Below, piece after piece: positions 13,229-64,000 of a stretch of DNA of 64,000 nucleotides. The stretch is from positions 496,001-560,000 of the forward strand of contig QXJR01000011.1 in the NCBI GenBank assembly GCA_020975725.1, in the 5' to 3' direction. Source of the DNA: Picocystis sp. L7 (Eukaryota > Chlorophyta > Picocystophyceae > Picocystales > Picocystaceae). Numbering within the stretch: the first letter of the stretch is position 1; every line of letters starts with the position of its first letter. The position numbers and the translations under genes were made by a program. The notes below the pieces were generated by a model. It worked only from the letters and a program-made list of their open reading frames with translations. It searched no databases and was not told the origin of the DNA.

Positions 13229-15568
13229 TCATCTCCACTCGCCGCCAAGGCATTCCCCTATGAATGCATACACATCAGCGTACTGCTCAATGACCTTGTC
13301 GGTAGGCTTGCCAGCACCATGACCGGTTTGAGTTTCAATCCTGGCAATCACAGGGTTGCGTGGAATGTTCCTGCCTCCATCCACCTGTCGCATTTGATGG
13401 TGAATGGTCGCCACTAGTTTGAGCGTATGGAGAGGTACGACACGGTCATCATGATCACCGGTAAGCAGCATCATTGATGGAAACTCCCCTTCCCCGCACT
13501 CTGGAATCCGTACGTTGTGGATGGGAGAATATGCGAGCAAGTTTTGGAATTCTTCCTCCGAGTTGTCTGCACAGCCATATTCTGAACACCATGCATGCCC
13601 GATGGTGAATTTGTGGAAACGGAGCATGTCCATGACACCCACATGAGCAATAGCACAGCCAAACAGATCGGGGCGTTGATTTGCGCAAGCCGCGACGAGC
13701 AAGCCACCATTGGATCCACCTTGAATGGCAAGCTTGGTTGGACTGGTGTATCCACTCTGGATCAAGTGCTCAGCGCAAGCAATGAAGTCATCAAAGACAT
13801 TTTGTTTGTTTTTCAGACTTCCTGCTTTGTGCCATTCCTCCCCATATTCTCCACCACCCCTCAGATTCGCAGTGACCGCGATCCCATCAAACCCAAGCAC
13901 AAAGGCCAGCTGAGAGGCGCTAAATGATGGCGTCAGGCTGATATTGAACCCACCGTAACCATACAACATTGTTAAATTGCTGCCATCTCTCTTGAGGCCT
14001 TTCTGGTGAGTCACAAACATGGGAACTTGGGTCCCATCCTTGCTCGTGGCGAATATTTGCTCAGTCACAAGACCATGGGGATCATACTTTTCATCTTTTA
14101 GATCAGATCTATGGAACACTTCCGGTTGTGTGACCATCCCCTTATCAGTGTCAACCCTATATATGGTACCAGGTTCTGTAAAGGTCTGGAACTTGAAGTA
14201 GAAATCGCTATCTTCCCTTCTGCAGCTAAAAGAGGTCACAGATCCGATTGGAAGGTCCAGCTCTCCCAAAAAATCTCCGCTGGACAATTTTCTCACCTGA
14301 AGGACATCCTTCGCATCCACCAGGTAGTCGCAGACCATCACATCTCCCTTCAACGCAGCTGCCCACTTGAGGACGTTATCTGATTGGGACAGCACCTCCG
14401 TCCAGGTCTCTGGTTTGTTTATTTTGCTTTCGTCACTCAGATCAACCCTGACCAGCTTGTACCTGGGTGCATTTAGGTTGGTTTTGAATGTAAACACGGG
14501 TCCATCGTTAGCCACATAATCGTACTGGGCATCAAAATTGTCGACCATGTACCTTCCTTTCTTCATCAGGCACCCTTCGTCGACATCTGCTCCCATTTCT
14601 TCCAAGTCTAATACCACCAACCGGTTCACAGGATCGCAACCATGGGTGATCCCAACCACGAGGTATTTTCCATCGTCTGTGATCTCTCCGGCGGCCATCC
14701 ATTCCTCTTGTTCACCCTCTGCCTTCCACAGGATCACATCCTTTTCCTGACTGGTCCCCATGCGGTGGTACACAAGTTCTTGTCCGCGGTTGGCATTGGT
14801 TTCAGTGCCTAGGTCCGGACCGCTTCCTTGGTCTTGTCCGTCTTCTGCTTGTCGTTCCGAATCTGCACCTTCCTTCTTCATGTTGGGTGGTGGGTATCGG
14901 TTGTACACAAGGGCTTCCCCGGTATGGTTCCAAGCCAAACCGGTGAACTTGACGTGTCGTAGCTTCTCTGTTAACTCTTCCACGTGCAATGCCTCTTCGT
15001 CCTCGTGGCTCAAATGAACGAATCGCACTTCGCACCAATCCGAGCCGCCTTTGGAGAAGGCATAGGCCAGCTTCCTGCCGTCCTGCGACGCCTCGTAGCT
15101 GGCGATGGCGCCTCCCATGCGCGTCGGATCCACCACCACGGGATCCTCGCCTTCCTTCCCGCCAGATTCGCACCCGCCTCCGCCTCCACGTGTCACGCAG
15201 AGGTCGTCCTGGGCCTGCAGGCCTCGGTTCCTCGTGTAGAAGGCGCGCCTCTTACCTCGTTTCTTCGGTGCGCTCCTCCTGGGATGGTCCAGCAGGAGCT
15301 TCAGGCGCTCCTTCATCGGTCCACGCGCGCCACGACGCTTCAAGGTGTCTTCTGCGACCTCCTGCTGCTGCTCCACGAACTGCTTCGTGTCGGCATGGAA
15401 AGGATCTTCCAGCGCATGGAACGGATCCAGGGGACGTTCTTCGTCCACCGCGGTCCAAGGATAGTCCTTCGGCGCTCGTGCCAACGGCGAGGAGCGGGAA
15501 CGCGAAGCCATCGCGGACGCGCGACGAGGTCGGATGGAAGCGAACGCGCGTCGCAAAGCGATGGACAT
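13229..15568 (-). CDS. PREP: Prolyl oligopeptidase (S9A family)
   Basis: 779-aa serine peptidase that cleaves short peptides after proline. N-terminal part: DYPWTAVDEERPLDPFHALE. A seven-bladed propeller region follows, with SGSDW-like KGGSDWCEVRFVHL, HTGEALVYNRYPP, GCDPVNRLVVLDL. The alpha/beta hydrolase domain has LYGYGGFNISLTPSFS, NLRGGGEYGEEWHKAG, the nucleophile Ser619 in GGSNGGLLVAACANQRPDLF, the Asp within GDHDDRVVPLHTLK and the His in TGHGAGKPT. These match animal and plant POP closely. The ATG at 15568 is the first in frame; a second at 15511 (MASRSRSSP) is possible. The leader MSIALRRAFASIRPRRASA is basic and organelle-like, about 60 residues longer than the 710-aa mammalian enzyme overall. 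An acidic insert (DSERQAEDGQDQGSGPD) lies in the propeller. No intron. Confidence 0.95.
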   Translation of the reverse strand: MSIALRRAFASIRPRRASAMASRSRSSPLARAPKDYPWTAVDEERPLDPFHALEDPFHADTKQFVEQQQEVAEDTLKRRGARGPMKERLKLLLDHPRRSAPKKRGKRRAFYTRNRGLQAQDDLCVTRGGGGGCESGGKEGEDPVVVDPTRMGGAIASYEASQDGRKLAYAFSKGGSDWCEVRFVHLSHEDEEALHVEELTEKLRHVKFTGLAWNHTGEALVYNRYPPPNMKKEGADSERQAEDGQDQGSGPDLGTETNANRGQELVYHRMGTSQEKDVILWKAEGEQEEWMAAGEITDDGKYLVVGITHGCDPVNRLVVLDLEEMGADVDEGCLMKKGRYMVDNFDAQYDYVANDGPVFTFKTNLNAPRYKLVRVDLSDESKINKPETWTEVLSQSDNVLKWAAALKGDVMVCDYLVDAKDVLQVRKLSSGDFLGELDLPIGSVTSFSCRREDSDFYFKFQTFTEPGTIYRVDTDKGMVTQPEVFHRSDLKDEKYDPHGLVTEQIFATSKDGTQVPMFVTHQKGLKRDGSNLTMLYGYGGFNISLTPSFSASQLAFVLGFDGIAVTANLRGGGEYGEEWHKAGSLKNKQNVFDDFIACAEHLIQSGYTSPTKLAIQGGSNGGLLVAACANQRPDLFGCAIAHVGVMDMLRFHKFTIGHAWCSEYGCADNSEEEFQNLLAYSPIHNVRIPECGEGEFPSMMLLTGDHDDRVVPLHTLKLVATIHHQMRQVDGGRNIPRNPVIARIETQTGHGAGKPTDKVIEQYADVYAFIGECLGGEWR

Positions 15569-15592
15569 GGACGTCGGGAAGATCTGACACCG

Positions 15593-15635
15593 TGCCACGT
15601 GGCAGGGGAAGGGGGCACCCGAGTGCCACGTGGCA
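15593..15635. promoter_or_regulatory. Two perfect 12-bp G-box palindromes
   Basis: TGCCACGTGGCA occurs at 15593-15604 and again at 15624-15635, centres 31 bp apart, starting 25 bp upstream of the prolyl oligopeptidase ATG. Both copies are perfect palindromes. The same 12-mer occurs in front of the acyl-CoA oxidase gene at 45815. CACGTG is the bZIP/bHLH G-box core; the binding factor here is unknown. Confidence 0.6.
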
Positions 15636-16866
15636 TGGCCTGGGGGCGCCGGAGGGAGGGGTCACGTGATGGTGGGGAGGAGGGCAGGGACGTGACCGAC
15701 ACCACGGAACGCGTGCACTTTGCATCCAAGGACAAGATCGTAGGAGCGAAGTACGTCCTCAACGCATCGTTTGTCGTGAAGGCATCGCTCCAACGGAACG
15801 TTCGCCTTCCCACGCGATGAAGGAAATGCCACGTGCGTGTTCGTACCCGGATCATCGATGTCTTGCGACAAGTGACGATCCGCAAGACTCAGGTCCATCC
15901 ACCGAACAATGGGACAGGCCATGAATCGAGCGGCCGTCCGACGGAAGACATGTCGCCAATAATTCCCACACGTTGTGCGCGAAACACGCCCACAACATCT
16001 TTCGAAGAGGATGGCTGCCGAAACCTACCGTTCTGCACTCACCACTTTTCGTGATGTTCATGTTTAGGATCTGCTTTGCAAGGCCATGCCCCTGCAAACG
16101 CGATCTTACCTTCCGTGCCCTCGTGTGGGCGATCAAGGAGGGTTCAACTAGAGGTGATTCACGTGTTCGAGGTTGGAACGGCCTCCCTCGTGTTCGCGAT
16201 TGCAAAAGCCACGAAGGGCACAGCGACCCAAGCACACGAGATCCTACGTTCTTCGTTTTCAAAAAATGCCCACCGGCGTACTTGCGAGGTTGCGTTCTTC
16301 TTCTTCCGTTGTGCAAATTAACATGTCCACGGGTTCCCTCAAGACGGTGCGTTGTTCCTTCGATCCCTCGATCTTGACCCGAATCACTTGTCACAAGAAA
16401 CGTCCCTTGCTTCATTTTGAGTGCGTGCGGAGTCGATGAACACATTTCAATCTAGGATCGGCCCTCTTCGATTTTCGGCCCCCTCTCGTTTCGTTTGATG
16501 ATCTTCTCTCTTCTCCACTCGCACTAGCCTTGCCACGCCATACAAGCTCACGCCCTCCTCCTCGCTTTTGTATCGGTGGATTCCCATTCGTCTTCTTGTT
16601 TGCGTTCGCACGGGTTTTACACCTCGGTGGTTGGTTGGTCTTGAAATTGCACGGTCGGCCACGTTGGTGGTCCATCGGTCGCGGTGTTGCGAAGGTGACT
16701 CTGGCCGTGAATGGTGGGTCTTGTTGGATCACGCATGGCCTTGACACATGCAATTGGTTCCTCATCACAAGGCACGCCCATGAGGAAGGTGCAAAGACGT
16801 GCCAAAAGGTGGGGTTCAAGGGGAGCAGTGGTCCCCACCCATCCAGTTCACAACCGACGAAGAGGA
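15636..16866. promoter_or_regulatory. Divergent upstream region of PREP and DPE1, no gene seen
   Basis: About 1.2 kb between divergent genes. No frame shows family features. 15.9-16.7 kb is a patchwork of short frames, possibly decayed repeat DNA. Confidence 0.4.
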
Positions 16867-18546
16867 ATGAGCGTGGAACGGATGGCGATGGCGACGCATT
16901 CGATGAAACCGACGCGACTGGCGCGTCGGACGAGGCGCGTGCGGTGCGTGAATCCGGGAAAGGAGCTGCCAGGAAGCTACGTGGACCGTCCAGCGGCGCC
17001 CAAAGGTCGACGGAGACGCGCCGGCGTGCTCCTGCATCCCACGTCGCTGCCTGGAGAAGGTGGCATTGGAACGGTTGGATCCCAAGCGAGGCGCTTCGTG
17101 GACTTCCTGTCGTCGGCAGGCATGTCTGCCTGGCAAATGCTCCCACTGGTGCCGCCAGACGCCGATTTCCACTCGCCATACTCCGGCGAGGACGCCAACT
17201 GTGGGAACGTGATGCTCATCGACCTCGCATCGCTCGTAGACGTGGGATTGCTGGAAGCCAAAGAGGTAGACAAAGCCCTCAAACAGTGGAATTGGCAATG
17301 GAAAGCAGCCAAAAAAGCAGACTTCGAAGGAGCAGAGAAGGCCAAGCGGCCACTCCTGGAGAAGGCAGCCAGGAACCTCCGGGAAGGCAAGGGTATGAAA
17401 CAACTGCTGGAGAAATTCAAGGCGTTCCGTGCCAGGGAAGACATCAGTCCTTGGTTGGAAGAATCCGCACTTTTTTCTGCACTCAAAGGAAGGGAAGAAC
17501 TCAAGGATTTGTTCTGGTGGGAGTGGCCAGAAGAGCTCCGGGACCGCCACCCAGAAGCACTGAAGCGGGCACGCGTGGAAGAAGCGGAAGCCATTGACCA
17601 ATTTGTGAGCCTGCAGTTCCTCTTTGACATGCAGTGGCAAAATTTGAAAATGTATGCCAACGAAAATGGCATTGCCTTGGTAGGGGACATGCCCATCTAT
17701 GTTGGAGGGCACAGTGCCGACGTTTGGGCTAATCGTGGCCTGTGGGAGCTACGGGAAGATGGCACGCCAGCACAAGTCAGTGGTGTGCCTCCCGATGCTT
17801 TCAGCAAGACGGGCCAGCTTTGGGGAAGCCCGCTTTACCACTGGCCATCTCACGAGGAGGAAGGATACAGGTGGTGGGCACAACGGCTAGGCAGAGCTCT
17901 CCAGCTGTACGACGAGCTACGCATCGATCACTTCAGAGGATTCGCAGGATACTGGGCGGTGGATGCGGATCAAGAGACTGCTATGGTGGGCACCTGGAGG
18001 GCAGGACCAGGGAAGAGCCTCTTTGACTCTCTGAAGGAACAGCTTGGTGGCTTCAACATTATTGCAGAAGACCTGGGTGTCATCACTCAGGATGTGGTGG
18101 ATCTCAGAGAAGCTATTGAGGCGCCAGGGATGGCCGTATTGCAGTTTGCATGGGGAGGATCTGCAAGCAACCCCCACCTGTCCCATAACCACTACGAAAA
18201 CTGTGTCGTATATCCAGCTACACATGACAATGAGACTACCGTGGGTTGGTTCAAGCGAATTCCAGCGGAAGAGAAAGGGAAAGTGCTTGCCTACCTAGGC
18301 ACAAATGGGAAAGACATTGCATGGGATTTTATTCGTGCAAGTATGTCCTCAGTTGCAGATACATCGATCTTCTTGATGCAAGATGTGATGCGCCTGGACA
18401 ACTCTGCAAGAATGAATACTCCAGGTGTAGCGGAGGGAAACTGGGCCTGGCGAATGGGGAACGAGAAAGTTTGGAAAAAACTGAAACAGCAAGCTGAGGA
18501 ACTTCGCACGCTTGCTGAAATCACGGGGCGTATTCCATCTGGTTGA
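16867..18546 (+). CDS. DPE1: 4-alpha-glucanotransferase (disproportionating enzyme, GH77), plastid
   Basis: 559 aa. Transfers maltosyl and longer glucan units between alpha-1,4-glucans, recycling maltotriose in starch metabolism. The leader MSVERMAMATHSMKPTRLAR followed by RTRRVRC fits a transit peptide with a VRC cleavage site. The mature start AGVLLHPTSLPGEGGIGTVG is typical GH77, then SAWQMLPLVPPDADFHSPYS, ALVGDMPIYVGGHSADVWAN, GVPPDAFSKTGQLWGSPLYH. The catalytic triad is visible: nucleophile Asp354 in RIDHFRGF, acid/base Glu401 in IIAEDLG, Asp454 in ATHDNET. The end has MNTPGVAEGNWAWRM. The ATG at 16867 was chosen because upstream in-frame codons give unrelated sequence. No intron. It points away from PREP and toward the WW/FF-domain gene. 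Confidence 0.96.
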   Translation: MSVERMAMATHSMKPTRLARRTRRVRCVNPGKELPGSYVDRPAAPKGRRRRAGVLLHPTSLPGEGGIGTVGSQARRFVDFLSSAGMSAWQMLPLVPPDADFHSPYSGEDANCGNVMLIDLASLVDVGLLEAKEVDKALKQWNWQWKAAKKADFEGAEKAKRPLLEKAARNLREGKGMKQLLEKFKAFRAREDISPWLEESALFSALKGREELKDLFWWEWPEELRDRHPEALKRARVEEAEAIDQFVSLQFLFDMQWQNLKMYANENGIALVGDMPIYVGGHSADVWANRGLWELREDGTPAQVSGVPPDAFSKTGQLWGSPLYHWPSHEEEGYRWWAQRLGRALQLYDELRIDHFRGFAGYWAVDADQETAMVGTWRAGPGKSLFDSLKEQLGGFNIIAEDLGVITQDVVDLREAIEAPGMAVLQFAWGGSASNPHLSHNHYENCVVYPATHDNETTVGWFKRIPAEEKGKVLAYLGTNGKDIAWDFIRASMSSVADTSIFLMQDVMRLDNSARMNTPGVAEGNWAWRMGNEKVWKKLKQQAEELRTLAEITGRIPSG

Positions 18547-28475: not shown

Positions 28476-31400
28476 CTCGATCGAGGGACTCGGAGCACGT
28501 CAGGCGACTCGCACGGGTCCTACGAACACGCGATGGGAAGCTTGGCGATGGACACGAACCACCTCCGATGTCTCCCTCTCCTGGCCCCATGGGCCGCCGC
28601 CACCCCCCTCCCTTCCCACCCGGACTAGGGTTCTGCACGAAAACGAGAGGAAAACACAGTTGTGAATTTCCCCGGCCTCGGGAGGGGGGTCCCGGACACC
28701 GAGGGTTGTGAAGGGAGAGGAGGGTCGAGGGGGGGATGCGAAGGTCCGGGTCCCCCCGAGAGGAGGGTCCGATCCGTCGGGAAAGGGGGAAAGGAGGAAC
28801 CAGCACGACACGTTTGGTGCACGGAATCCAAGGCATGGAGAAGGCTTGGACCTCGCGTGGAAGCGCCGACGGAAACGGGAATGGATCGCCCTGTTGTGCC
28901 GAGCTGGCACGCTCGTCGAGGAAGACGGTCCGTCCAATCGCCATGCTCGCACGTACACCTCCCGAAACGTGGAGCCGTGGTCGAGGAAAATTCCTTTGCT
29001 ACGTCGTCATCCAACGAGACCGCCAAGGCTTGGCTTGCACATGGAAGAGTGATAGGGGACATCAACGCAGCGTGGATTTTCGCGGAGCAATCGCACGCAA
29101 TGAAAACTTCAACAACGCAAGATCAACGAAGAAACCATGTCATCGTACGTTCATGAAAAAAGAACAATCGCTTTGCTCCCGAAAATGCTCGGGGGACGGT
29201 CACATGAGAACTTGTTGGAGCCGTCGTCTCCCTTGCACGTGTGGGACTCGGTTGTACGTCTATGCATCCTACAAACCAACTAAACGCTTTCGAACGGCTT
29301 GGCAAGAAGAACATGCGATCGATTTTATCGGACATTGCTTTATGTATTAGCATCTCCAAGAGAAGCTCTCTCACCCAGTCTTACATTGCATATTTAAATC
29401 ATTTGGTTTTCCCACACGGGTGTCGCCATGAATCCATGGGTGGCTCTATAGCCCCTCCATTGAAGGGTAGAAAAGCAAAGTTACCTAGTCTATCCTTCGA
29501 CGAGGACCAAACAATTCGGAAAGAATGCTAACGTATTCTTCAACCTCGAATCAAATGACAAAGCACGCATTGCTGCCAGCACAAAGGAGGCCCATCACAA
29601 ATGTCTACATTAATTGCGAGAGGAATAACCGCACATCTCTATGCGTCAATCCCTTGTTAAATTTCTTCTCAAACTTGTGAATTGCGTTATTCGTCTGCAA
29701 GCATCCTTACCTATCATTGTTAGAAACAAGACACGAGGCACGCCAAGAACTTCTCTTTTTTGCAATTGTGCTTCCGCTCAAGGTAAAAAAGGGATAGAAG
29801 GGTGTGAAAAGTTTGGAACCTTGTGCATTTGCCATCAATCGTTGCTAAAGAGCCCCAACCTACTTTCAATACCTTACTTTGCTTGGCTAAATAAACCACC
29901 CGCTAGAGTCAACCACGAATGGCGGTCCTCCAAGCCGGAGCGCCCTACACCTCTATTGCATAGGGATACACGTGGTGTCTTACCATGCTTCAAGCAAGAG
30001 TGCATGCCCAACTCCCATAAGAAGAATGCTCTATCTACCATTCTCTCAAACTTTGATGGTGACTTGGTCTCTGTGATAAGATTCATTGCAAGATCAATGT
30101 AAGAGCACCATGATCGATGTCTATGAGCGCCATTGGTTCCAAGCAAGCCACAAAGCCACACAAATACAACTTTCGTAAAGGAATCAATCTCGAGGGCTTC
30201 CTTTGCAATTGCCATGTGTTTAAACACGTGCTATAACGACAACTGGAGATGTTAAATTAAAATTTTTCAATGCATATCGGCAAACCGTTGGCCTTAAAAA
30301 AAGATCAACAGGTCCGAAAATCGATAAGGTACTATCCTTATTCTTTTTGATCACGTGCTCCTTGGCATGGCATATTATTGGAAACATTCTCTCCCTTATC
30401 AAAGTATTCCTCCCTTCGAAAATCAGCTACAACCTTCAATCATTCCCAAAGCCCAACTTTGAGATCTGTTGAGCACTTTACCAAATTGTGAACACATCTC
30501 GCACATTGCACCTTGTTGGCTTTACACACGTGCATGACCCATTCCTCCATGGATATAAATTTGCGCATCTAACCGCAACTCTAGCTTCCAATATTGCAGC
30601 AATGGCGGCCAATAATCGAGTTTCTCTACGAGACCCGAAATATTTTCATACTGCATTCGAAGGCGAAATTGTTCTACAAGCATTGATACATGCCATTTTC
30701 ATCGCTCTATTGCAATATTTATTTTGAACATGAAGCGATGAAGTTGGTGACCGACACCATCAATCCAAATTGCTCCTACCGGCATTGCCCTTTTTGCAGT
30801 CACAATCCACCTCATTCGGAGTCCGACTATGCTTCCAAAATAGCAGGATTCCTTCCAAATTCTTCCCAGTGCGTTCTAGCACCAGCACCTCGCTCGCATG
30901 TCCGAGTTGGATTGCGTTTTCCCGCCTACATTTCATACATTGGCGGGGGATATCGCGCGTGCACCAACCATTTTACTACCACGCATGTCCACATTATGAG
31001 ACTTCAACAGAGATTCACATCGTCAATACACTAGGTTAGCAATAGGGAATGGCACCTAAATGCGCGTGGAAGAGCGATGCAGTCTTGAGGATGAAGTAGG
31101 AGCAATATTCAAGCAATACATTGAGTGAGATCAAGATGGAGAGATAAGCGATGATTGTGCATTTTGTGCATGGTCTACATTCAACATAAACCATGGAAAA
31201 CGGATTGAAAACCTTTAAATGATAATCCGGAGGGTGGCGACTGTGACAATTTATTCGACTTTGCCATACATACCTTGCCATTCATATCAATTCAATATAA
31301 AGTTTCCTAAGTAGTTCATGCTTACCGAGCCCCATTTGGGAGGTCAAAGATATTATGTGCACTGACATAAAAGGTGGCTTGGAGAAGAAATTCCCGGTTG

Positions 31401-32763
31401 TTTTGTGTAGCTCAAGTGTAGACCCAATAACGCTTTCAACACACTTCAACAAAACCAATACGTTTTGAAAATTACTTAGCAAAAGACTTTAAGATTAAAG
31501 CATCCAATGATGCATTGTAAAGTTACTTCTATTTTTGAATGGGTCACATAATCAAACAACCCAGAGAATGGTTCAACATTGTAAATTGAGATGTTGCTTC
31601 GAAATCATGACCAAGTCCGACCACATAATGGAAAACATGCCGATGAACTGGGACGCTCGTAATGCGTGAATTTCGACGTAGAAGGCCTCTCTACACCATT
31701 CCAAACATGTGTATTTACCTTTGATCAGCCGTGTACCAACGCAACGTTTTCCTCCCTTCGTATTTCTCACGACTTCGCCGTTGAAACCTCTCAATTGCAC
31801 AAATTGTGCATGGATGTGGATGAACAAGATCGAATGTTCCTCGTGCGGGCATCACAATTGTGCATTTGTCTTGAGTTGGTCAGCGAAGTGCTTGGTTAAG
31901 AAAATGACCGAGACTCACAACCCCAATTATTGCGAATGGATAATGGTGCACAGCTTTTCATTTTAAAACTTACTTCCCACATATTCATCTTGCAATCCTT
32001 CCTCCTCTCTAGAATGGTTGCGACCAAGTTTGCAACCAAACATTGGAATTACACTCTCTTTAGGCTTGTGTCTTCATCACCAATCCACGATCCAAACTTG
32101 CATTTGGTTACCTAACAACTTTGCATGCAACAAGCTCTAGTGGGTTTCCCAAAGATAAAGAACTTATACTAGGCAAAGTTTACGATCTGCATGGTGTGAC
32201 AAACGGCAGGCAATTTTGTTATGCGAAGTAATCCTGCTTCAACATGAACTAGGCTACATGATGGAACATTGCCGACCTCACTTCCTATAGCTTCAATCGA
32301 ATCAATTCGACAAGCAGCCCTCTCTTGGCTTCTTCAACACGTGGAAAGAATTGACCTCGAGGGTTTCCTTCACAGGGTCATACAATGAGCCCAATCTCTA
32401 TCTTGAGGAAATGTTTGCCCCCAATCCTCCTGGCCATGTACCATTGAGAGGGCAGCAATCAAATTGCATTTCGATAGAGGCAGTATCCAAACAGCCACAT
32501 TTGCGTTGTGTTGCCGCTGCGGCACCTAAAAGGGAGGGGGACAAGTACTATTGGGAACATCAGTAATTCTACCTTGATTTGAAAAGATGTCGATGGAATG
32601 CAGATTGACGCATCCGAACAATTTCTACTTCATACAAACAAACCCAGGTGGCATCGATCCCGTTGCATGTTAGCAACATGCATGATCTACAGTGCTGAAT
32701 TGGTGGAATGGTGTTTGCCATCAATTCCCTCCAATTCTGGTATTGATGCAACGAGACAGGGCT
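28476..32763. other. Gene desert, AT-richer from about 29 kb, no recognisable gene
   Basis: The first 450 bp is RPL5 upstream DNA with a G-tract (GAGGGGGGGATGCG near 28726). From about 29 kb to 32.7 kb the sequence turns clearly more AT-rich than the flanks, with A/T runs (for example 30245-30270), no frame longer than about 150 codons, and no domain features on either strand. It may be an old repeat graveyard, a replication-origin-like or heterochromatic segment. I cannot name any element in it. Confidence 0.45.
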
Positions 32764-33099
32764 TCACTTCTGTCCCGCTGGTAATGCTTTAACATCTACC
32801 GGTACATTAGAATCAATAACTTTTCCGTTGATATCAACCACACTGTGACTCCCGATAAACGCTGGATATGGATTTCTTTCCTTCAAGCATGCTTTATAGC
32901 ACCCCACCAAACTGTAATAAATCAAGGGAGGGCCGATCACCGATACAATGACGATGCCAACGATTGCACCAGTGCTCAAGCCACTGTTTGCAGCTACCCT
33001 GGCACCACCAGCTGTTGGGCGCCGTCCTTCCACGAGCGTGAGACAGCAACCAAAGAACAGGAGAGACCCCAATGCTTCCAACTTCGCCCGTGCCACCAT
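32764..33099 (-). CDS. Small secreted-pathway single-pass membrane protein, unknown
   Basis: 111 aa from the first true ATG at 33099. The N-terminus MVARAKLEALGSLLFFGCCL with TLVEG looks like a cleavable signal peptide (basic n-region, hydrophobic core, small residue near the cut). A second hydrophobic stretch follows at about residues 46-68 (GAIVGIVIVSVIGPPLIYYS). The tail has CYKACLKERNPYPAFIGSHS, then VVDINGKVIDSNVPVDVKAL. This reads as a type I membrane protein with a short cytosolic tail. I recognise no family. The clean signal peptide plus membrane span makes it a credible gene despite its size. Confidence 0.6.
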   Translation of the reverse strand: MVARAKLEALGSLLFFGCCLTLVEGRRPTAGGARVAANSGLSTGAIVGIVIVSVIGPPLIYYSLVGCYKACLKERNPYPAFIGSHSVVDINGKVIDSNVPVDVKALPAGQK

Positions 33100-46051: not shown

Positions 46052-48922
46052 TCAGGCAAGGCGCGAACTCAGTTCCTTGAGGAACTTGCGCTTACGGCGA
46101 CCTTCCTCAGACACAATCGTGTATTTATTCGATATGCACTGAATGAGCGACAAAACCTGCGACTTGGTGAACTCTGGATGCACTTGTATCCATTCCAAAA
46201 GACCCTCCTCTGCAACGTAAAATCCTTTGATGTAATTGTCCACCGGCATCATGGATGGGCTCACGGGTACACCTTCAAGGACTTCCTCCAGGCTATTGAT
46301 CAGCACCTGCATGTCCAGTGCCATCATGCCCCTCCCCTCCTGCGAGCACTTCTTTACTCTCGACAAACCCTCCACAATGTGATGGGCACACACTTCCACT
46401 GCAAAGCCTAGAAGCATCCTTGAAACTTTCTCACCAATGCCTGCCACGGAGAGGCGTGCAGACAGACTTCTGAACTCAGCAACCAAGGAGCCCACCCACG
46501 GGTTGTGCTGGACGCCAATGTCGCGGATATCGTACTTGGTCGAACCGATGCGCTCTGGCAACCATTCGACGCTCAAAAGGAGCCGCGATGCCGTCCTATA
46601 TACGTGTTCTTGCAAGTCCCCAGTAGCCTCCAGAGTACGGTTGAAAAACTGCTCCGTCACAGGAGATGTAACCAGCCTGCTATCGGCAAGAACTAGGCCT
46701 TTAATTTTCTTTATCTCATCAGCCACAACAACCAGTGATTCTGTTGCCACGCTCCGCTCTTTCAACCCATACAGATTTCCTTGTGACATCGTCCCACCCC
46801 GTCCACTGATGGACTTACGCACCTGCCCCGATTCACCCTGTGAATTCATGGCTAAAAACTGAGGTGGATTTCTGGGCGTGTCCACGTTTTCAATGCTCTT
46901 AGAAATGGCAATGATGGTTTTCCTCAGTCTAGGTGTCAGCTCATTCAAACCAAGTACCTCTTTGCTTGAGTTATCAATGGTGCCATCAATGGCCAGCCCA
47001 AAAGCTTGAAAGGTGTACAACATACAGCACTCAAACAGCTGGCAGACACCACCAAATACATTGGCATCTGGACTCAATTCGCCTATTATTCCCAGGTACT
47101 CCTCCATCAAGCGTAAAACTTTGAGCGAGGTGGAGGTCATGAGACAGTTTGTATGAGCTTGTGCATTTGCCGGTACGGCCGTCTCCTTTTCAAGGGGGTG
47201 CCCTGCAGGCATCGCGGGCACCTCACCTTCCCAAACACTCGTCGCTGGTCGAACCCCTCCGTTCTGGAACATCTGGTTCGTTTCCACCAAAGCGTTTTGA
47301 TCCGTACCTTGGTCAAGGTTGGATGGTAAGCGGCGAGGAGAAGATATTTCCATCCCTGCTGTTGCATCATCGTCCTTCCAAGGATTCCCGTACTCAAGCC
47401 ATTCCCCAGTTCCCCAAGGAGGATCTCGCTGATCCAGCAAACCTCCCCTGGCTTGATAAGCCTTGTACAAATCCGGAACTGCAATAGATCCAGCTGGCAG
47501 CGCTTGCCATACTTCCTTTTCCAGCATTCCATTGACCATTTCAAGATTCTGTCTGTGATAGGCAGCAAAGTAACGAGCGCTTTGTCGTTCAAAGGCATTT
47601 TGGAGCTGAGCAGTTGCTCCTTTGCCCACGAAAGATTCCCCAATCAATAAGAATACCTTAACCCACTCCAGAATCTGCATGAAATGTTCTCCTTCTGTGC
47701 CAGTGGGCAAAGCCAGAATAGCCGTCACACGTCTACATCCTAAGTTCCAAAGTGTCTTTCTTGAAGTGTCAAGCATTTCTACGACCTTTCTACAAATCAA
47801 AAGTTCCTGCTTCTTTCCCAATTCTGATGGAGAGCAGGACTCACAGCCTTCTTCCAATTTAACCAGCCGGTTTTCGTGCCACTGTAGCATTTTGAAGCAG
47901 CTACTGTACGTATCATACAAGGACCCCATTACCTTTGAGAGGCAGGGTCGAAAGTGTTCAGATGCAAGGTGAGAGACCAGATCATTGAAGGGAACCGTGC
48001 CATTCATGATCTTCTGCCGCTTGAGTGTACTAAATTCTTCTTCTGGCATGCTTAGCACCATGGATCTTGCGATTGCGCTTGATTTACCCAGGATGATCTC
48101 TGAGAAGGCTGTCTGAACTTTTTCCGCCAGTACATCTGCATCATCCAGCTCGACGTAGGCTTGCAGGATGGGCAGGTACCTATCTGCTTCAAACGATTCA
48201 CACACTCTTGAAAGCAATCCATCAATTCTCACGATGATGTCATGCAGTGCTTGGTCTAGCTTTGCTTGCAGCTCTGGGATGCAAAGCAGCTCCTTCAGTT
48301 GGATCATCTGGTTGTGCAGTGACATGCAGACACGGAAGCACTCTTGGAATTCTTCTTTCGGCGCCAGTTGCTGCAGCCTTTCCATGTCGGCGTGCATCTT
48401 CTTGAGCTGCAGCATCCGTTGGAGCACTTGTTGCAGCCTTTGTTTTTTCCTAGTGTCTCTGGCGATGGCGATGCCGTGTCGAACCTCGGCATCTGCGTCC
48501 TCGAGGTGCTTCCTGGCTTCTTTGGCATACCTGAAGGCTTTTTCGAGCTCTTGCTGCATCTCAGCGACCTTTGACATCCCTTCGACGAAACTCTTGTAGC
48601 TTTCGGTGATGTTGGTGGTGAGCTCTTCGTTGACGGCCCCGATCTGTTCCATCCTCGTGGCGATGCGCTGTTCCACGTCTTCCGCCTCGAATTCCCTCGG
48701 CAGCTTCGCGACGTCCTCCATGGCTGCATCGTGATCTTCTTGAAAGAGCTCTAGTTCGACTTCACGCAGGATTTCGTGTCTTTTCCTCGTCTCCTTTTGC
48801 ACGGTGGACGCGAGGAAGTCGATCCTCTGCTGCATGGCCTCGTCCGCGGCCTTTTCGGCCTCGGCATGGCGCACGCGCGTCTTTCCTCGCCCGAACAGCG
48901 ACCGTTTCGCACCGTGCGCCAT
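46052..48922 (-). CDS. VPS50: VPS50/syndetin, EARP complex subunit
   Basis: 956 aa from ATG 48922 (MAHGAKRSLFGRGKTRVRHA); the frame above it opens only with GTG. VPS50 replaces VPS54 in the GARP-related EARP tether with VPS51-53, acting in endosomal recycling. The N-terminal coiled-coil region (residues about 30-170) is followed by LKKMHADMERLQQLAPKEEF, ALHDIIVRIDGLLSRVCESF and ILQAYVELDD typical of the VPS54_N-like domain. A low-complexity middle (about 520-590) precedes the C-terminal domain with KYDIRDIGVQHNPWVGSLVA and DNYIKGFYVAEEGLLEWIQV then HPEFTKSQVLSLIQC, the most diagnostic segment. Single exon. ACOX follows 270 bp downstream on the same strand. Confidence 0.9.
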   Translation of the reverse strand: MAHGAKRSLFGRGKTRVRHAEAEKAADEAMQQRIDFLASTVQKETRKRHEILREVELELFQEDHDAAMEDVAKLPREFEAEDVEQRIATRMEQIGAVNEELTTNITESYKSFVEGMSKVAEMQQELEKAFRYAKEARKHLEDADAEVRHGIAIARDTRKKQRLQQVLQRMLQLKKMHADMERLQQLAPKEEFQECFRVCMSLHNQMIQLKELLCIPELQAKLDQALHDIIVRIDGLLSRVCESFEADRYLPILQAYVELDDADVLAEKVQTAFSEIILGKSSAIARSMVLSMPEEEFSTLKRQKIMNGTVPFNDLVSHLASEHFRPCLSKVMGSLYDTYSSCFKMLQWHENRLVKLEEGCESCSPSELGKKQELLICRKVVEMLDTSRKTLWNLGCRRVTAILALPTGTEGEHFMQILEWVKVFLLIGESFVGKGATAQLQNAFERQSARYFAAYHRQNLEMVNGMLEKEVWQALPAGSIAVPDLYKAYQARGGLLDQRDPPWGTGEWLEYGNPWKDDDATAGMEISSPRRLPSNLDQGTDQNALVETNQMFQNGGVRPATSVWEGEVPAMPAGHPLEKETAVPANAQAHTNCLMTSTSLKVLRLMEEYLGIIGELSPDANVFGGVCQLFECCMLYTFQAFGLAIDGTIDNSSKEVLGLNELTPRLRKTIIAISKSIENVDTPRNPPQFLAMNSQGESGQVRKSISGRGGTMSQGNLYGLKERSVATESLVVVADEIKKIKGLVLADSRLVTSPVTEQFFNRTLEATGDLQEHVYRTASRLLLSVEWLPERIGSTKYDIRDIGVQHNPWVGSLVAEFRSLSARLSVAGIGEKVSRMLLGFAVEVCAHHIVEGLSRVKKCSQEGRGMMALDMQVLINSLEEVLEGVPVSPSMMPVDNYIKGFYVAEEGLLEWIQVHPEFTKSQVLSLIQCISNKYTIVSEEGRRKRKFLKELSSRLA

Positions 48923-50520
48923 CTCGGCCGTTCCCTCGACCTCAGCTGCGCATGTCTCGTGCCTTGTGGCGTCCGTTCGCGAGCGCAGCACGCGCGCCTC
49001 GATGCGGCTTCGAAGGATCGAAAATGGAAGCTTCGCGTCTTCAGGGTGGGTCCCGACCCCCTCCCCAGTCCTCGGTGAACTTCGGGGTTCATTGGAGGGG
49101 GTCCAAAGGGGGAACCCGATCCTCCAAAGGGGGAAGGAAGGGACGGGTAGGAAGGGATGCCCTTTCAGTAGGGAACAGGGCCATGTTTAGGGGTTCGACC
49201 CCACCTTCGACCATGGCCATGACCGGGTCGCCGGTCAGGGAAGATGCCGAGGAATCCAACATTAGAGAGACAAACAACCGCCTGGTCGAAAGACCCAAGC
49301 GACAGCGAAACGGACCAGTCAGGGACCCGTCGTGCAATGGAGGACGGAGCGTCGTTCGAACAAACAAGGAGCGATACCAACACCGCGCATGCGTTACTTG
49401 TAAAACAGATTCTGCCATCCAAACCGAGCTGCCACAAGCCCTTCTTGACACCGAGCGACGTTCATCGCGAGCCTCTTGACGTGCCACTCAAGGCATCACA
49501 CGTCTGGACGATCGACGAAAACGCTCACCTAGGGTTTTACCAATCGTCACTCTCGAATCACTGCATTGCGAGGTGCACAACGACGTGCCAAGATTAAGGA
49601 GAGTCAAACAAGGGGCTTGATAATCCATCAAAAAAGGGACACTCCTCCGAGGGTGGTTTGGCGTGTGGCATCCACCACCTCCTCCTCGAACGGTTGCCAT
49701 CTAGGTCGCAACCGAACCCATCGTGGCTTGGCTCGTGGTGCAAGACGAGAAAAAGGAGATCAAAGGATCCAAACATGTCAGAGCCAAGCTAACGGGAGGA
49801 AAAGAAATGCACGTGCATTCGCGCGTTCCCACGCACGCCCGCCCCCGTGGGTTGGGTCCGTGGTTTCTCGAGTCTACATGGACGAGTTTCGCCATGCCAT
49901 GTCTCCATCGTGTGTGGCTCACACGCGAAAGTTTGTGGTGTTGCCGACGCGAGCCGGTCTTTTCTGCGCTACGACAAGTCAAATAATCAAATCTCGTTCC
50001 AAGGAGGAAGGTCGCTTGATTGGGAAGTGTTCGACCAAACAAGGCACGATCGTGTTCTTGTCATCCCCCGACGCAATGGGCACCATATCCTCTCATCCCA
50101 ACCGGATTTCATTGCGCGTTAGTGCACCCTTGAAGCCACGCCGGTGCGCCCCGGCGGCGATTCCGATGAAACATACGTCGCGATTTACAATCACAAGGAC
50201 CCGGTTTCCGACCATTGGATGCTCGAATCTTCCACCGAGCAATGTAACTTCAAAGCCAATAGACGTAGGTACTTGCAAGTGTCCACGGGGATCCCGTCCC
50301 GGCTCGCTCCCCAGGATGGATCCCTGCTTTCTCGTCCACCTTGCCCGACCGTGGAACAACCTTGGTGCATCGGCTCACTTGAAGCGAGCCCCGTCTTCAC
50401 CAAAGCACCATCCACCATCCCTGCGTAGGAACCACCGACCTTGCTACAGGGGCGGAAGTCTCGTGGTACGATCGCTGAGTTGTGAATCGAGAGAAGGGTC
50501 ACAGTTGTGAATCGAGGGAG
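48923..50520. promoter_or_regulatory. Divergent upstream region, 1.6 kb, no gene seen
   Basis: Between VPS50 and the lipase gene. Near VPS50 it holds two CCAAAGGGGGAA words (about 49096 and 49122). 49.2-50.4 kb has many short frames on both strands with no family features. A GGTTCGACCC word at about 49192 looks like a tRNA B box but has no A box or cloverleaf around it. Confidence 0.4.
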
Positions 50521-58409: not shown

Positions 58410-59188
58410 CGCTCGTTCCTCCCACACCCCCTTTTCCCCCCCCTTCCAGCAGTTGCACCCCCCTTCCACGACCAGATGCACCCCTTTCCACCAGGTGCAC
58501 CCCGAGATCCCCACCCGGACCCGAACGAACCGGTGGAGGCCCGTCCGTACGGATCACGTACGGGTACGCGTATCCGGACGGAGGAGTCGCCCCCGGACCA
58601 CGTGGCGAGTGTCGTGACGTGGATCGGGTCCGTACTGAAGGGACGCCCCACAGGTGGGGACGCTGTCCCATCCACCCGAACGGTTTATCTATTTGTAGCC
58701 AGGCTACAAATTAGCCAGTTTTTTCCTCTGCGGGATCAACCACCGTCCGTTCCATTCGAACCAAACAGCGAGGAGTAAATATACACTTTTGAACAAAAAC
58801 ATGCAGAGGAACAAGGATTCCTCCTCGTGTCTTCGAAATATTCGCTTGAACGATTCACCGATTCATCGATCGCCTGTCTCGAAAGCGACAACTGCCGCAG
58901 AGCGATTCCCGCTCCATTGTGAGGCGAAGGGGGGGCACCCTTGGGTCTCACCGGAGGACAAGGAAACGACTAAGCCAAAACAACCAAAGGACTCATACAT
59001 TGATCGACTTGCTGAGCCATTTCCGACGACTTTCCCGCCACAGACCACCGCGAAAGAACGCGAACACAGCCGGAAAAAAGAAGACGCACGTCGATCAACA
59101 CGTCTCGGCAGCCTGTTCACACCCGCCAGCAGCAACCGAAAAGACAGCAGGCGCCGACCGTGGGTGTTGTTGCGGGCTGCATTTGCGA
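58410..59188. promoter_or_regulatory. CCCH gene upstream region and outer flank of the transposon
   Basis: Holds the G-box at 58598-58605 and C-tracts near 58430-58445 next to the CCCH start. The left outer boundary of the 53-bp array begins about 59189. No gene seen in the remaining 400 bp. Confidence 0.4.
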
Positions 59189-60770
59189 CATCCAGGACAG
59201 CAGGTGACGGCATCGGACAGCCAGGTGGGCTGCTTTGGAGGCTTCCAGGACAGCAGGTGACGGCATCGGACAGCCAGGTGGGCTGCTTTGGAGGCATCCA
59301 GGACAGCAGGTGACGGCATCGGACAGCCAGGTGGGCTGCTTTGGAGGCATCCAGGACAGCAGGTGACGGCATCGGACAGCCAGGTGGGCTGCTTTGGAGG
59401 CATCCAGGACAGCAGGTGACGGCATCGGACAGCCAGGTGGGCTGCTTTGGAGGCATCCAGGACAGCAGGTGACGGCATCGGACAGCCAGGTGGGCTGCTT
59501 TGGAGGCATCCAGGACAGCAGGTGACGGCATCGGACAGCCAGGTGGGCTGCTTTGGAGGCATCCAGGACAGCAGGTGACGGTATCGGACAGCCAGGTGGG
59601 CTGCTTTGGAGGCATCCATTACAGCAGGTGACGGCATCGGACAGCCAGGTGGGCTGCTTTGGAGGCATCCAGGACAGCAGGTGACGGCATCGGACAGCCA
59701 GGTGGGCTGCTTTGGAGGCATCCAGGACAGCAGGTGACGGCATCGGACAGCCAGGTGGGCTGCTTTGGAGGCATCCAGGACAGCAGGTGACGGCATCGGA
59801 CAGCCAGGTGGGCTGCTTTGGAGGCATCCAGGACAGCAGGTGACGGCATCGGACAGCCAGGTGGGCTGCTTTGGAGGCTTCCAGGACAGCAGGTGACGGC
59901 ATCGGACAGCCAGGTGGGCTGCTTTGGAGGCTTCCAGGACAGCAGGTGACGGCATCGGACAGCCAGGTGGGCTGCTTTGGAGGCATCCAGGACAGCAGGT
60001 GACGGCATCGGACAGCCAGGTGGGCTGCTTTGGAGGCATCCAGGACAGCAGGTGACGGCATCGGACAGCCAGGTGGGCTGCTTTGGAGGCATCCAGGACA
60101 GCAGGTGACGGCATCGGACAGCCAGGTGGGCTGCTTTGGAGGCATCCAGGACAGCAGGTGACGGCATCGGACAGCCAGGTGGGCTGCTTTGGAGGCATCC
60201 AGGACAGCAGGTGACGGCATCGGACAGCCAGGTGGGCTGCTTTGGAGGCATCCAGGACAGCAGGTGACGGCATCGGACAGCCAGGTGGGCTGCTTTGGAG
60301 GCATCCAGGACAGCAGGTGACGGCATCGGACAGCCAGGTGGGCTGCTTTGGAGGCATCCAGGACAGCAGGTGACGGCATCGGACAGCCAGGTGGGCTGCT
60401 TTGGAGGCTTCCAGGACAGCAGGTGACGGCATCGGACAGCCAGGTGGGCTGCTTTGGAGGCTTCCAGGACAGCAGGTGACGGCATCGGACAGCCAGGTGG
60501 GCTGCTTTGGAGGCTTCCAGGACAGCAGGTGACGGCATCGGACAGCCAGGTGGGCTGCTTTGGAGGCTTCCAGGACAGCAGGTGACGGCATCGGACAGCC
60601 AGGTGGGCTGCTTTGGAGGCTTCCAGGACAGCAGGTGACGGCATCGGACAGCCAGGTGGGCTGCTTTGGAGGCTTCCAGGACAGCAGGTGACGGTATCGG
60701 ACAGCCAGGTGGGCTGCTTTGGAGGCATCCAGGACAGCAGGTGACGGCATCGGACAGCCAGGTGGGCTGC
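59189..60770. repeat. Left array, about 30 copies of a 53-bp tandem repeat
   Basis: Unit length 53 bp, near-identical copies. Each unit contains GGACAGCAGGTG and GGACAGCCAGGTG, so it looks internally duplicated, and an inverted CAGCC...GGCTG around AGGTG. Scattered variants: GGAGGCATCC versus GGAGGCTTCC, GGCATCGG versus GGTATCGG, and one CCATTACAG replacing CCAGGACAG near 59616. Six consecutive CTT units lie at the inner end. 53 is not a multiple of 3, and the minus strand has no stop in any frame, which produces spurious 370-560 codon frames. Confidence 0.97.
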
Positions 60771-60887
60771 AGTTAAGAGCCACCTTTGAAAGTTGGTTGG
60801 AAAAGAGTTAAGGAGGTTGAGCTGGTGTGTGCTGTAAATGTGGTAAATGACTTCATCTTTTCAACAGCTGCATCTGCTATCCTTGAA

Positions 60888-63239
60888 CTACTTGTGAATC
60901 TCCGTACATGGCCTCCGCCTTTTTTGCTGTGGTCTCCCCTTGCCACGTACCGATGGAGGGTTTAACATTTGGCATGCTCCTTGCGCATGGATTGGAACGT
61001 TAGGGGGTGACCCAAGCGATGAGTGTTTTTCTACTATGGTGGCGGCAAGTTTGTCAAGTTCCCTTAGTACGATATCGGTAGTGCTTGCATCATTCACACA
61101 TGATGCCAGCTCACATACATATTTGGCCTTTTGTTGGATTGCTACATAAACTTGTTCTTTTGTTTGCAATTCTTTCTCTCTAATGGCCAATAACTCAACA
61201 TTTGGAGCATTGCTTGTTGAGTAAAAGTCTTTATATGCATTCAATGTTCGTTGGTTGCATTCAAGCTTCCAATTTTCATTGAATTCATCACCTTTGAATG
61301 AGAAGATTTGCTTGTGAATATAGAGAGCCAACATATGCCTACAAGGCAAGCCCATGTTTAAGCTATATTGGCATGAACATCTCCCAAGGGAAGTTGAGCG
61401 GCTGTCCAATCTTGATGATATTCCTAGCTCCGCATCCAAAGAATTGGTAGTTTCAATGGTTTGCTCAGTAGCTTCATTAGCACCCTCCATACGGACACTA
61501 TTTGGCTCGTTGTGAGTTGAATTTGTACGAATTCTTTGAACATGATATTGTTCACTTGCCATCCCACCTTCTTTACTCACAAGGTAATATTGTGCTTGGT
61601 TTAGTTGCCCGCTCAGATGACGCCATGCAAATGGAGTGATGAAATCAGCCGCACTATCAAGAAGAGGTGAATGCAAAATCTGGCTAGCTTGAAATAGTCT
61701 CCCATGTAGAACACGCATATAATTTTCACTCATTTTCTCATTGGCGTATTCTGACAACTTGTTCAACAAGTGAGTTAACGAACTCCGAGAGGAAAGAAAC
61801 CCCTTGATGGCAGCGTGTATAGATTCTGACCGTTGAGTGGAATGAGCCCCTTGAGTGAAATGTTGCCAAGTCCATCTACTAGCCCATTGTCTCCTTTTTG
61901 CATACATCATATCTAAGTACCTTGTTGCTTTTTGTGTCGTCGTCCACTTTTTAGAAGGCATACTTGAAGAGCCCATTGATTTGTCGTTTGCTTGGTATGT
62001 CCCTTCATCGAGTGGGGCCTCTACTTGGGACGTTTTCCAATCATTGTGATCTTCGAAAGATGTACCTTTGGCACTTTTTCCACCCTTGTTGGCCCTCTCT
62101 GCTACAACCTTCGAAACAAGCTCCTTGAGCTGTTCAAAATCTCTCTCAAATGATTCGATTGACCGGGCATCCGAGTCCATTGCTATCTCCCAGAACAACT
62201 TGCGAAATGTGGACCATGAATTCCCAAGAATCGGCTTCAAGTTCTTCACCACGTTTTGTGCAAAGTGCCATAGGCATAGCAAATGAGTTACTTCCGGCCA
62301 TGTACTCTTCAATGCATATGCCATCGCTTGGTCACCATCTGTGAACACCACACGGGGTGCATGACTATTCGAAGCATCCTCGAGGGATTTGAAAACCCAC
62401 TCAAAATCTTCAACGGTCTCTTGCACGAGCAAAGAGCAAGCAACAATGACCGTCATCCCATTGGCATTAGTTGTACAAAAACACCCAAGCTTCATCCCAT
62501 GTCTATTCGTGGCATGACTAGTATCATAAAGAAGAACCCGCGAACTCGAAGCTTTGATCCACGCCTCTTTACCTTCCTCGAGGGTGAAGAATGCCCTCGA
62601 CAATCTTCCTTCATTATCGCAATGAATGTTCCACGACTTGCTATCATGACGGTTGCGAAGTAGATTTAGAAAGTCACTACAATCTCTTGCTTTTTCCCCC
62701 AAAGAAGGTGCCAACTTGTTACAAACATCCTTGTATGTCCACATTGGTGTTTCTCCTTTGTCTTTCATCATTTGTTGTAAGCTCACATGTATATCTCGCA
62801 TCCGCATACCCGATCGTAACAAGGATTGCCCATAATCCAATACTTCATTGGGAATGGTCCGTTCCGCGGGTATTACCCGCAATTCACCCGCATGATCCTC
62901 CTTGAACAATTCATGGTTGTGAACTAGGGAAATAAAGCGTTTCAAGTACCATTTGCCATCACGTTCCTCAACGATGAACCCATAGGGACAACCATTACAT
63001 TGAGTTGTTGTTCGCCGTATATGGGCTTGAGAGGGGCGGTTGCCACTTCTGCGACACAAGATTTTCTTCCTTTGTCCAGATTTTTTTGTAGCCGGTATCG
63101 ACCCACCAAACCGAACCCACGATTTACCATCTTCACACAAACTTAAAAATGTGTTCACTTCACACAAAGCCCCCTCAGCCGTAGACCAAGGGCCCTGTGG
63201 GAAGCCAACAGGCCCAATATGGAGTAAACTTTGCTCCAT
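60888..63239 (-). CDS. MULE transposase, FAR1/FHY3-like
   Basis: 783 aa from ATG 63239; an open frame continues into the right array but starts there only with TTG. Domains in order: a FAR1/WRKY-GCM1-type zinc-binding domain (CNGCPYGFIVEERDGKWYLK ... VHNHEL, C-x2-C ... H-x-H), a MULE DDE core with Asp in RVLLYDTSHATNRHG, Asp in RVVFTDGDQAMAYALKSTWP and Glu in HSTQRSESIHAAIKGF, the LLCLWHFAQNVVKNLKPIL helix between, a SWIM zinc finger CSCQYSLNMGLPCRHMLALY (C-x-C-xn-C-x-H), and a basic AT-hook-like tail (GKGRPQQKRRRPC). All catalytic and zinc residues are present and the frame is intact, so the gene may be functional. The start lies 34 bp from the right array, so the promoter probably lies within the array. 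Confidence 0.95.
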   Translation of the reverse strand: MEQSLLHIGPVGFPQGPWSTAEGALCEVNTFLSLCEDGKSWVRFGGSIPATKKSGQRKKILCRRSGNRPSQAHIRRTTTQCNGCPYGFIVEERDGKWYLKRFISLVHNHELFKEDHAGELRVIPAERTIPNEVLDYGQSLLRSGMRMRDIHVSLQQMMKDKGETPMWTYKDVCNKLAPSLGEKARDCSDFLNLLRNRHDSKSWNIHCDNEGRLSRAFFTLEEGKEAWIKASSSRVLLYDTSHATNRHGMKLGCFCTTNANGMTVIVACSLLVQETVEDFEWVFKSLEDASNSHAPRVVFTDGDQAMAYALKSTWPEVTHLLCLWHFAQNVVKNLKPILGNSWSTFRKLFWEIAMDSDARSIESFERDFEQLKELVSKVVAERANKGGKSAKGTSFEDHNDWKTSQVEAPLDEGTYQANDKSMGSSSMPSKKWTTTQKATRYLDMMYAKRRQWASRWTWQHFTQGAHSTQRSESIHAAIKGFLSSRSSLTHLLNKLSEYANEKMSENYMRVLHGRLFQASQILHSPLLDSAADFITPFAWRHLSGQLNQAQYYLVSKEGGMASEQYHVQRIRTNSTHNEPNSVRMEGANEATEQTIETTNSLDAELGISSRLDSRSTSLGRCSCQYSLNMGLPCRHMLALYIHKQIFSFKGDEFNENWKLECNQRTLNAYKDFYSTSNAPNVELLAIREKELQTKEQVYVAIQQKAKYVCELASCVNDASTTDIVLRELDKLAATIVEKHSSLGSPPNVPIHAQGACQMLNPPSVRGKGRPQQKRRRPCTEIHK

Positions 63240-63273
63240 GTGCTGAATGGGACCCAAGAGATCTGCCTCAATT

Positions 63274-64000
63274 ACCGTCGCCTGCTGTCCTGGATGCCTC
63301 CAAAGCAGCCCACCTGGCTGTCCGATGCCGTCACCTGCTGTCCTGGATGCCTCCAAAGCAGCCCACCTGGCTGTCCGATGCCGTCACCTGCTGTCCTGGA
63401 AGCCTCCAAAGCAGCCCACCTGGCTGTCCGATGCCGTCACCTGCTGTCCTGGAAGCCTCCAAAGCAGCCCACCTGGCTGTCCGATGCCGTCACCTGCTGT
63501 CCTGGAAGCCTCCAAAGCAGCCCACCTGGCTGTCCGATACCGTCACCTGCTGTCCTGGAAGCCTCCAAAGCAGCCCACCTGGCTGTCCGATGCCGTCACC
63601 TGCTGTCCTGGATGCCTCCAAAGCAGCCCACCTGGCTGTCCGATGCCGTCACCTGCTGTCCTGGAAGCCTCCAAAGCAGCCCACCTGGCTGTCCGATGCC
63701 GTCACCTGCTGTCCTGGATGCCTCCAAAGCAGCCCACCTGGCTGTCCGATGCCGTCACCTGCTGTAATGGATGCCTCCAAAGCAGCCCACCTGGCTGTCC
63801 GATACCGTCACCTGCTGTCCTGGATGCCTCCAAAGCAGCCCACCTGGCTGTCCGATGCCGTCACCTGCTGTCCTGGATGCCTCCAAAGCAGCCCACCTGG
63901 CTGTCCGATGCCGTCACCTGCTGTCCTGGATGCCTCCAAAGCAGCCCACCTGGCTGTCCGATGCCGTCACCTGCTGTCCTGGAAGCCTCCAAAGCAGCCC
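63274..64000. repeat. Right array, inverted copies of the 53-bp repeat, cut by the window edge
   Basis: At least 13.7 units in the reverse orientation relative to the left array. It carries the same variant classes, including one unit with CTGTAATGG (the complement of CCATTACAG) followed by one GATACC unit, in the same order as in the left array but about 9 units from the inner edge instead of about 22. The first unit at the inner edge reads CCGTCGCC instead of CCGTCACC. Confidence 0.97.

Follow-up and report, generated by a model that had tools for sequence, protein, structure and literature searches.

A putative foldback-type Mutator-like transposon with arms of 53-bp tandem repeats in the green alga Picocystis sp. 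L7

The right-hand end of the 64-kb window (the whole stretch of 64,000 nucleotides that was analysed) holds a long transposase frame flanked by two arrays of one 53-bp unit, direct on the left and inverted on the right (Table 1). Elsewhere in the window, 12 of the 20 other frames scanned match Pfam cellular families at E 0.001 or better, one of these matches (AP2) being under its cut-off, and a PAP/fibrillin domain was found by Pfam among the window frames. One of the frames encodes a glucanotransferase that scores 572 bits against solved chloroplastic DPE1 chains, as compared to 391 bits for the highest-scoring chain without that name. With the PAP/fibrillin domain, this makes a plastid-bearing alga a likely source. 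The uninterrupted ORFs at 46055-49186, 13232-15661 and 16711-18543 (syndetin/Vps54-like, prolyl oligopeptidase and DPE1-type glucanotransferase, respectively) are long, which suggests an intron-poor genome. A 4-kb stretch at 29001-33000 is richer in AT (GC 0.40-0.46 vs 0.54 for the window) and is devoid of any stop-free frame of at least 220 codons. Scans of the window with Rfam (at the gathering threshold) and for tRNAs were empty.

Table 1. Features of the putative element and its borders (positions in the window)
Feature	Position	Strand	Description
Possible degenerate unit or host flank	59121..59173	+	21 of 53 bases match the unit in register
Left arm	59174..60770	+	30 direct 53-bp units plus 7 bp (GGGCTGC); Tandem Repeats Finder and unit-by-unit variants
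Unique DNA, stop codon to left array	60771..60887	-	117 bp
Transposase ORF	60888..63239	-	783 aa, uninterrupted; first in-frame ATG at 63239, stop at 60888
Unique DNA, ATG to right array	63240..63274	-	35 bp
Right arm	63275..64000	-	Inverted 53-bp unit, 14 in the window; end cut by the window

In random DNA of matching composition, an open frame of 783 codons would be expected with a chance of about 4e-22. The protein contains a Pfam MULE domain (residues 235-329, E=2.6e-22, 79.5 bits vs a cut-off of 27.6) and a SWIM finger (residues 619-643, E=7e-5, 22.7 bits vs a cut-off of 19.6), and a ZSWIM1-3 RNaseH-like match (9.2e-9) overlaps the MULE domain. The NCBIfam matches to IS1249 and IS256 are weak and far under their cut-offs (E=1.9e-5 for IS256). 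The sequence-only reading had described this frame as an intact-looking FAR1-like MULE transposase; intactness and the MULE assignment both hold, while the FAR1 label is softened by a weak match (residues 53-112, E=6.5e-4, 20.8 bits) that lies under the curated cut-off of 28.1. The same reading had stated that all DDE, zinc and SWIM residues are kept, and this agrees with what we find when they are placed by the motifs of these families: D239, D301 and E472, which we take to be the catalytic DDE, C621, C623, C633 and H635, presumably the SWIM set (CxC...CxH), and a C/H set that we assume to be FAR1-like are all present. The ORF also differs in composition: its GC is 0.44 and its GC3 0.42, whereas the seven other window frames compared have a GC3 of 0.50-0.66. 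The single-sequence AlphaFold model of the transposase (mean pLDDT 40.6) was too poor for use.

The two arrays are long and very regular. Tandem Repeats Finder reported 30.1 copies with 98% matches on the left and, as the reverse complement of the left unit, 13.7 copies with 97% matches on the right, in agreement with the earlier count of about 30 direct and at least 13.7 inverted copies. Together with the unit variants, it places the start of the left array at 59174 rather than at 59189, where the element had previously been taken to begin, and gives a left arm of 1597 bp. The right array continues past the window end, and its copy number is a lower bound (at least 14 units, the innermost a partial one of 37 bp) with the outer end beyond 64000. 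Spacing is exactly 53 bp in 29 of 29 intervals between left units and 13 of 13 between right units. When a 24-mer from the core of the unit was searched with up to 3 mismatches, all 44 matches (30 on the forward strand, 14 on the reverse) fell within the two arrays and none elsewhere in the 64-kb window; the control of 100 shuffles gave 0 matches. The arms are complementary at 97-99% in the inverted pairs listed, the right-hand terminal position being outside the window. Long inverted arms made of tandem repeats, the feature that marks foldback elements, are thus what the 53-bp arrays form.

Each unit is itself a doubled motif, with two copies of GGACAGC(C)AGGTG, and none of 1000 base shuffles attained its self-similarity score of 20 (best shuffle, 19). 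Exact copies of the motif number 59 in the left arm and 25 in the right arm, with none elsewhere in the window, and the doubling is retained in nearly every unit. We regard GGACAGC(C)AGGTG as a candidate transposase site, nothing more. CACGCGC, which we take to be the plant FHY3/FAR1 site, is absent from the 53-bp unit, and the single-strand hairpin of one unit is not exceptional (z -0.91). Translated, the arrays also give long ORFs with a 53-aa repeat (59098-60807 on the reverse strand, 63185-64000 on the forward strand). A coding role was set aside; one strand of the unit is stop-free in three frames, which is probably due to chance and was judged unremarkable for a 53-codon cycle.

The relationship between the arms is best seen in the variants of the unit, which were compared over 42 interior units (29 left, 13 right) with the two edge units excluded. 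These fall into five types: the consensus (18 left, 5 right), 17T (8 left, 5 right), and 38T, 17T+38T and the double change 22T/23T, each of these last three with one unit per arm. Because all five interior types are present in both arms, the arms read as one mirrored sequence and not as two unrelated minisatellites. Private changes are confined to the edge units, with one in the innermost right unit and four in the outermost left unit (59174-59226), where all four substitutions lie within the outer 15 bp. Unequal exchange and conversion would leave just such homogenised interiors and divergent edges, and a recent homogenisation of the arrays is the best reading of the pattern. The order of the units is partly common as well: the single-copy 22T/23T (T) and 38T (C) units are adjacent in both arms and come in the same order from the inside outward, while the 17T+38T unit lies on opposite sides of a run of 17T units in the two arms and so is placed differently relative to its neighbours. 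An alignment of unit order scored 11.6, a value equalled or exceeded in 142 of 5000 trials with the right arm shuffled (about 3%), in what is a modest test with weights of our own choosing; the score with the right arm reversed was lower (7.4). Read outward, the last units of the right arm in the window are T, C, two consensus and A, and the left arm shows T, C, five consensus, A and the edge unit. If the arms mirror each other, we predict that the right end lies no more than one or two units beyond 64000.

No inverted repeat bounding the core was found inside the arrays, the four pairs listed being all within the ORF, so there is no conventional TIR between arrays and gene. The DNA of about 120 bp on the inner side of the left array (60771-60890) has a weak resemblance to the unit in reverse orientation, with 11 of 1000 shuffles as high, in one of six such comparisons. 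On the outer side, an extra degenerate unit may lie at 59121-59173, which makes the left outer boundary uncertain: the segment has the 9-mer GACAGCAGG in register, and its resemblance to the unit is weak since another register gives 23 matches. For the 100 bases before the left array, the local score was reached by 66 of 1000 shuffles and by 44 of 589 background windows. The array begins with GGG at 59174; an arthropod survey of 2026 reports conserved G/C at positions one to three of most MULE ends (PMC13359780). Mutator elements are recognized by a target-site duplication of 8-11 bp, and foldback elements by multiple genomic copies with variable arms. If 59174 is the left boundary, the copy of the duplication on the right is predicted to end in GTTGTTGC.

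Judged on its sequence, the locus is probably an autonomous-looking DNA transposon of the Mutator superfamily (MULE) with a foldback build. An intact MULE ORF between inverted 53-bp arms makes the foldback-like MULE with tandem-repeat arms that had been proposed before the best reading available; the suggestion of a new element type has to be given up. Such an element might function as follows. The transposase would bind both arms at many of their GGACAGC(C)AGGTG copies, pair the two ends and cut at the outermost unit. The unique DNA ahead of the ATG amounts to just 35 bp, so any longer 5' leader would extend into the array; the promoter would be sited in the array or within this short stretch, barring a transcription start outside the arm, and the gene may be transcribed from within the right array. 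Arm length would drift through slippage or unequal exchange, and conversion or exchange would homogenise the arms, the edge units escaping; drift and homogenisation together could explain why 30 units in one arm and at least 14 in the other are built from few common variants. By analogy with Galileo, and given the doubled motif, the units probably offer many binding sites for the transposase, and many sites combined with an array promoter are a reasonable mechanism. A bolder and rather improbable extension is that the arms lack a unique terminal sequence and every 53-bp unit serves by itself as a complete modular end, carrying promoter activity and two transposase sites; cutting at different units would then move a variable number of them, and arm length would act as a heritable dosage control of both mobility and self-silencing by hairpin RNA.

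Within the transposon reading, it is conceivable, with odds somewhat below even, that an original MULE TIR was amplified internally, in which case the arrays would be neutral and only the outermost unit would work as an end. The four private substitutions of the outermost left unit fit this idea, and plant MULEs with tandem TIRs exist, for which slippage has been proposed (PMC3310237). On the other side, the doubled motif kept in nearly every unit fits the use of inner units, although homogenisation alone would also produce it.

The arrays could instead be a host minisatellite, with a MULE or a domesticated MULE gene caught between inverted copies by inversion or duplication, so that they would not be transposition ends. 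The absence of a conventional TIR between the arrays is compatible with that, and foldback repeats may exist as free satellite arrays, as those of Tetris do (PMC4079207). Insertion into an array would, however, give direct and not inverted flanks; the arrays begin just 35 and 117 bp from the ORF; the core of the unit is absent elsewhere in the 64 kb; and the five interior variants are all common to both arms. We consider such an origin unlikely. A domesticated FAR1-type host gene would have no TIRs around it, and here inverted arms lie within the same short distances of the gene. Still less probable, to the point where we give it little weight, is that the inversion was created in assembly by a palindromic or chimeric read or by mis-joined repeats. 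Long, near-identical inverted arrays are indeed difficult to assemble, but the arms end at different unit phases beside the core, as a mirror-image read would not, which argues against such an error, and the order of the variants differs between the arms apart from the common blocks. Copy numbers may still be wrong.

The preferred reading, a MULE with foldback arms, places the element in known company. An association of MULE transposase and tandem-repeat foldback arms, thought possibly undescribed in the sequence-only reading, is already in print for Muta1 and Tm1. Muta1, a MULE active in Aedes aegypti, has been classed as a type 2 foldback element (PMC5225508). Like the algal element, it has its transposase between TIRs that are largely tandem repeats (9 copies of a 12-bp repeat), and subterminal tandem repeats occur in 10 of 12 long-TIR MULE families of Aedes (PMC5225508). 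It differs in having 145-bp TIRs, a 10-bp terminal motif and a two-exon transposase of 504 aa (PMC5225508), as compared to the 53-bp unit, the 1.6-kb left arm and the uninterrupted 783-aa ORF with a SWIM finger found here. Tm1 of root-knot nematodes, presented in its title as a Mutator/Foldback family, has variable numbers of a tandem motif that make unequal TIRs around a MULE-type transposase; its motif is only 13-15 bp, its 7-bp end motifs are asymmetric and its 496-aa transposase is of the Phantom type with FLYWCH (PMC3169594). The Tm1 authors also name FARE of Arabidopsis, cited as a plant foldback element with a MULE transposase (PMC3169594, PMC4486113).

Other elements resemble the algal one in part. 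Tetris of Drosophila virilis, put in Mutator by its authors partly on 8-10 bp duplications, has TIRs that contain internal tandem repeats and reach 1,735 bp, but its repeat is of about 220 bp, it has a separate flanking TIR domain and it is non-autonomous (PMC4079207). Galileo, also from Drosophila, has long TIRs with tandem repeats and a transposase of the P superfamily, not a MULE; the THAP domain of this transposase binds sites in two TIR repeats, and the 2013 paper regarded such binding as then still untested for Foldback and Phantom elements (PMC3688188). Plant tandem-TIR MULEs have repeated terminal units at both ends, which are whole TIRs repeated two or three times and not minisatellite arrays (PMC3310237). 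In two surveys, MULE TIRs range from 14 to 500 bp in the text of one, with a red-algal table entry of 640 (PMC6446971), and from 13 to 1193 bp in arthropods, with one table row of 1527 (PMC13359780). The left arm exceeds these values and stays below the Tetris maximum of 1735 bp (PMC4079207).

As elements of such a build are known from animals and plants, we see here a long-armed variant and not a new kind of element, and on the best reading it is the unusually long and clean arrays that set it apart among foldback-type MULEs. Among the matches listed from the open-licence literature, we noticed no MULE with array arms whose host is an alga or whose transposase is of the FAR1 type; neither the 53-bp unit nor a 1.6-kb array arm beside a SWIM-bearing, weakly FAR1-like transposase was seen there. 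Sequence searches covered viral, prokaryotic or plasmid DNA and solved structures, collections with little bearing on algae. Pattern matches to the full protein and to its 120-aa catalytic stretch numbered 4 and 6 in viral contigs and 32 and 55 in genome contigs of the viral, prokaryotic or plasmid collections, none of them confirmed as a relative; tblastn of the transposase against phages and plasmids gave no match, two patterns of the 53-bp unit gave 0 matches in viral contigs, and the PDB sequence search returned 0 matches. No second MULE copy was found in the 64-kb window, where, apart from the element's own ORF, tblastn gave nothing better than E=0.046.

If confirmed, the element would widen the range of foldback-type Mutator elements to include a plant-like transposase with a SWIM finger in an alga, a single copy showing both the transposase and the array arms. 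Because the number of units could be varied in a transposition assay, arms built from one clean 53-bp unit would also allow direct tests of the roles proposed for tandem-repeat TIRs (binding specificity, promoter, silencing). As for the site itself, the left array starts 765 bp upstream of a CCCH zinc-finger frame, counted from that frame's first ATG (58409), in line with the preference of MULEs for the 5' regions of genes.
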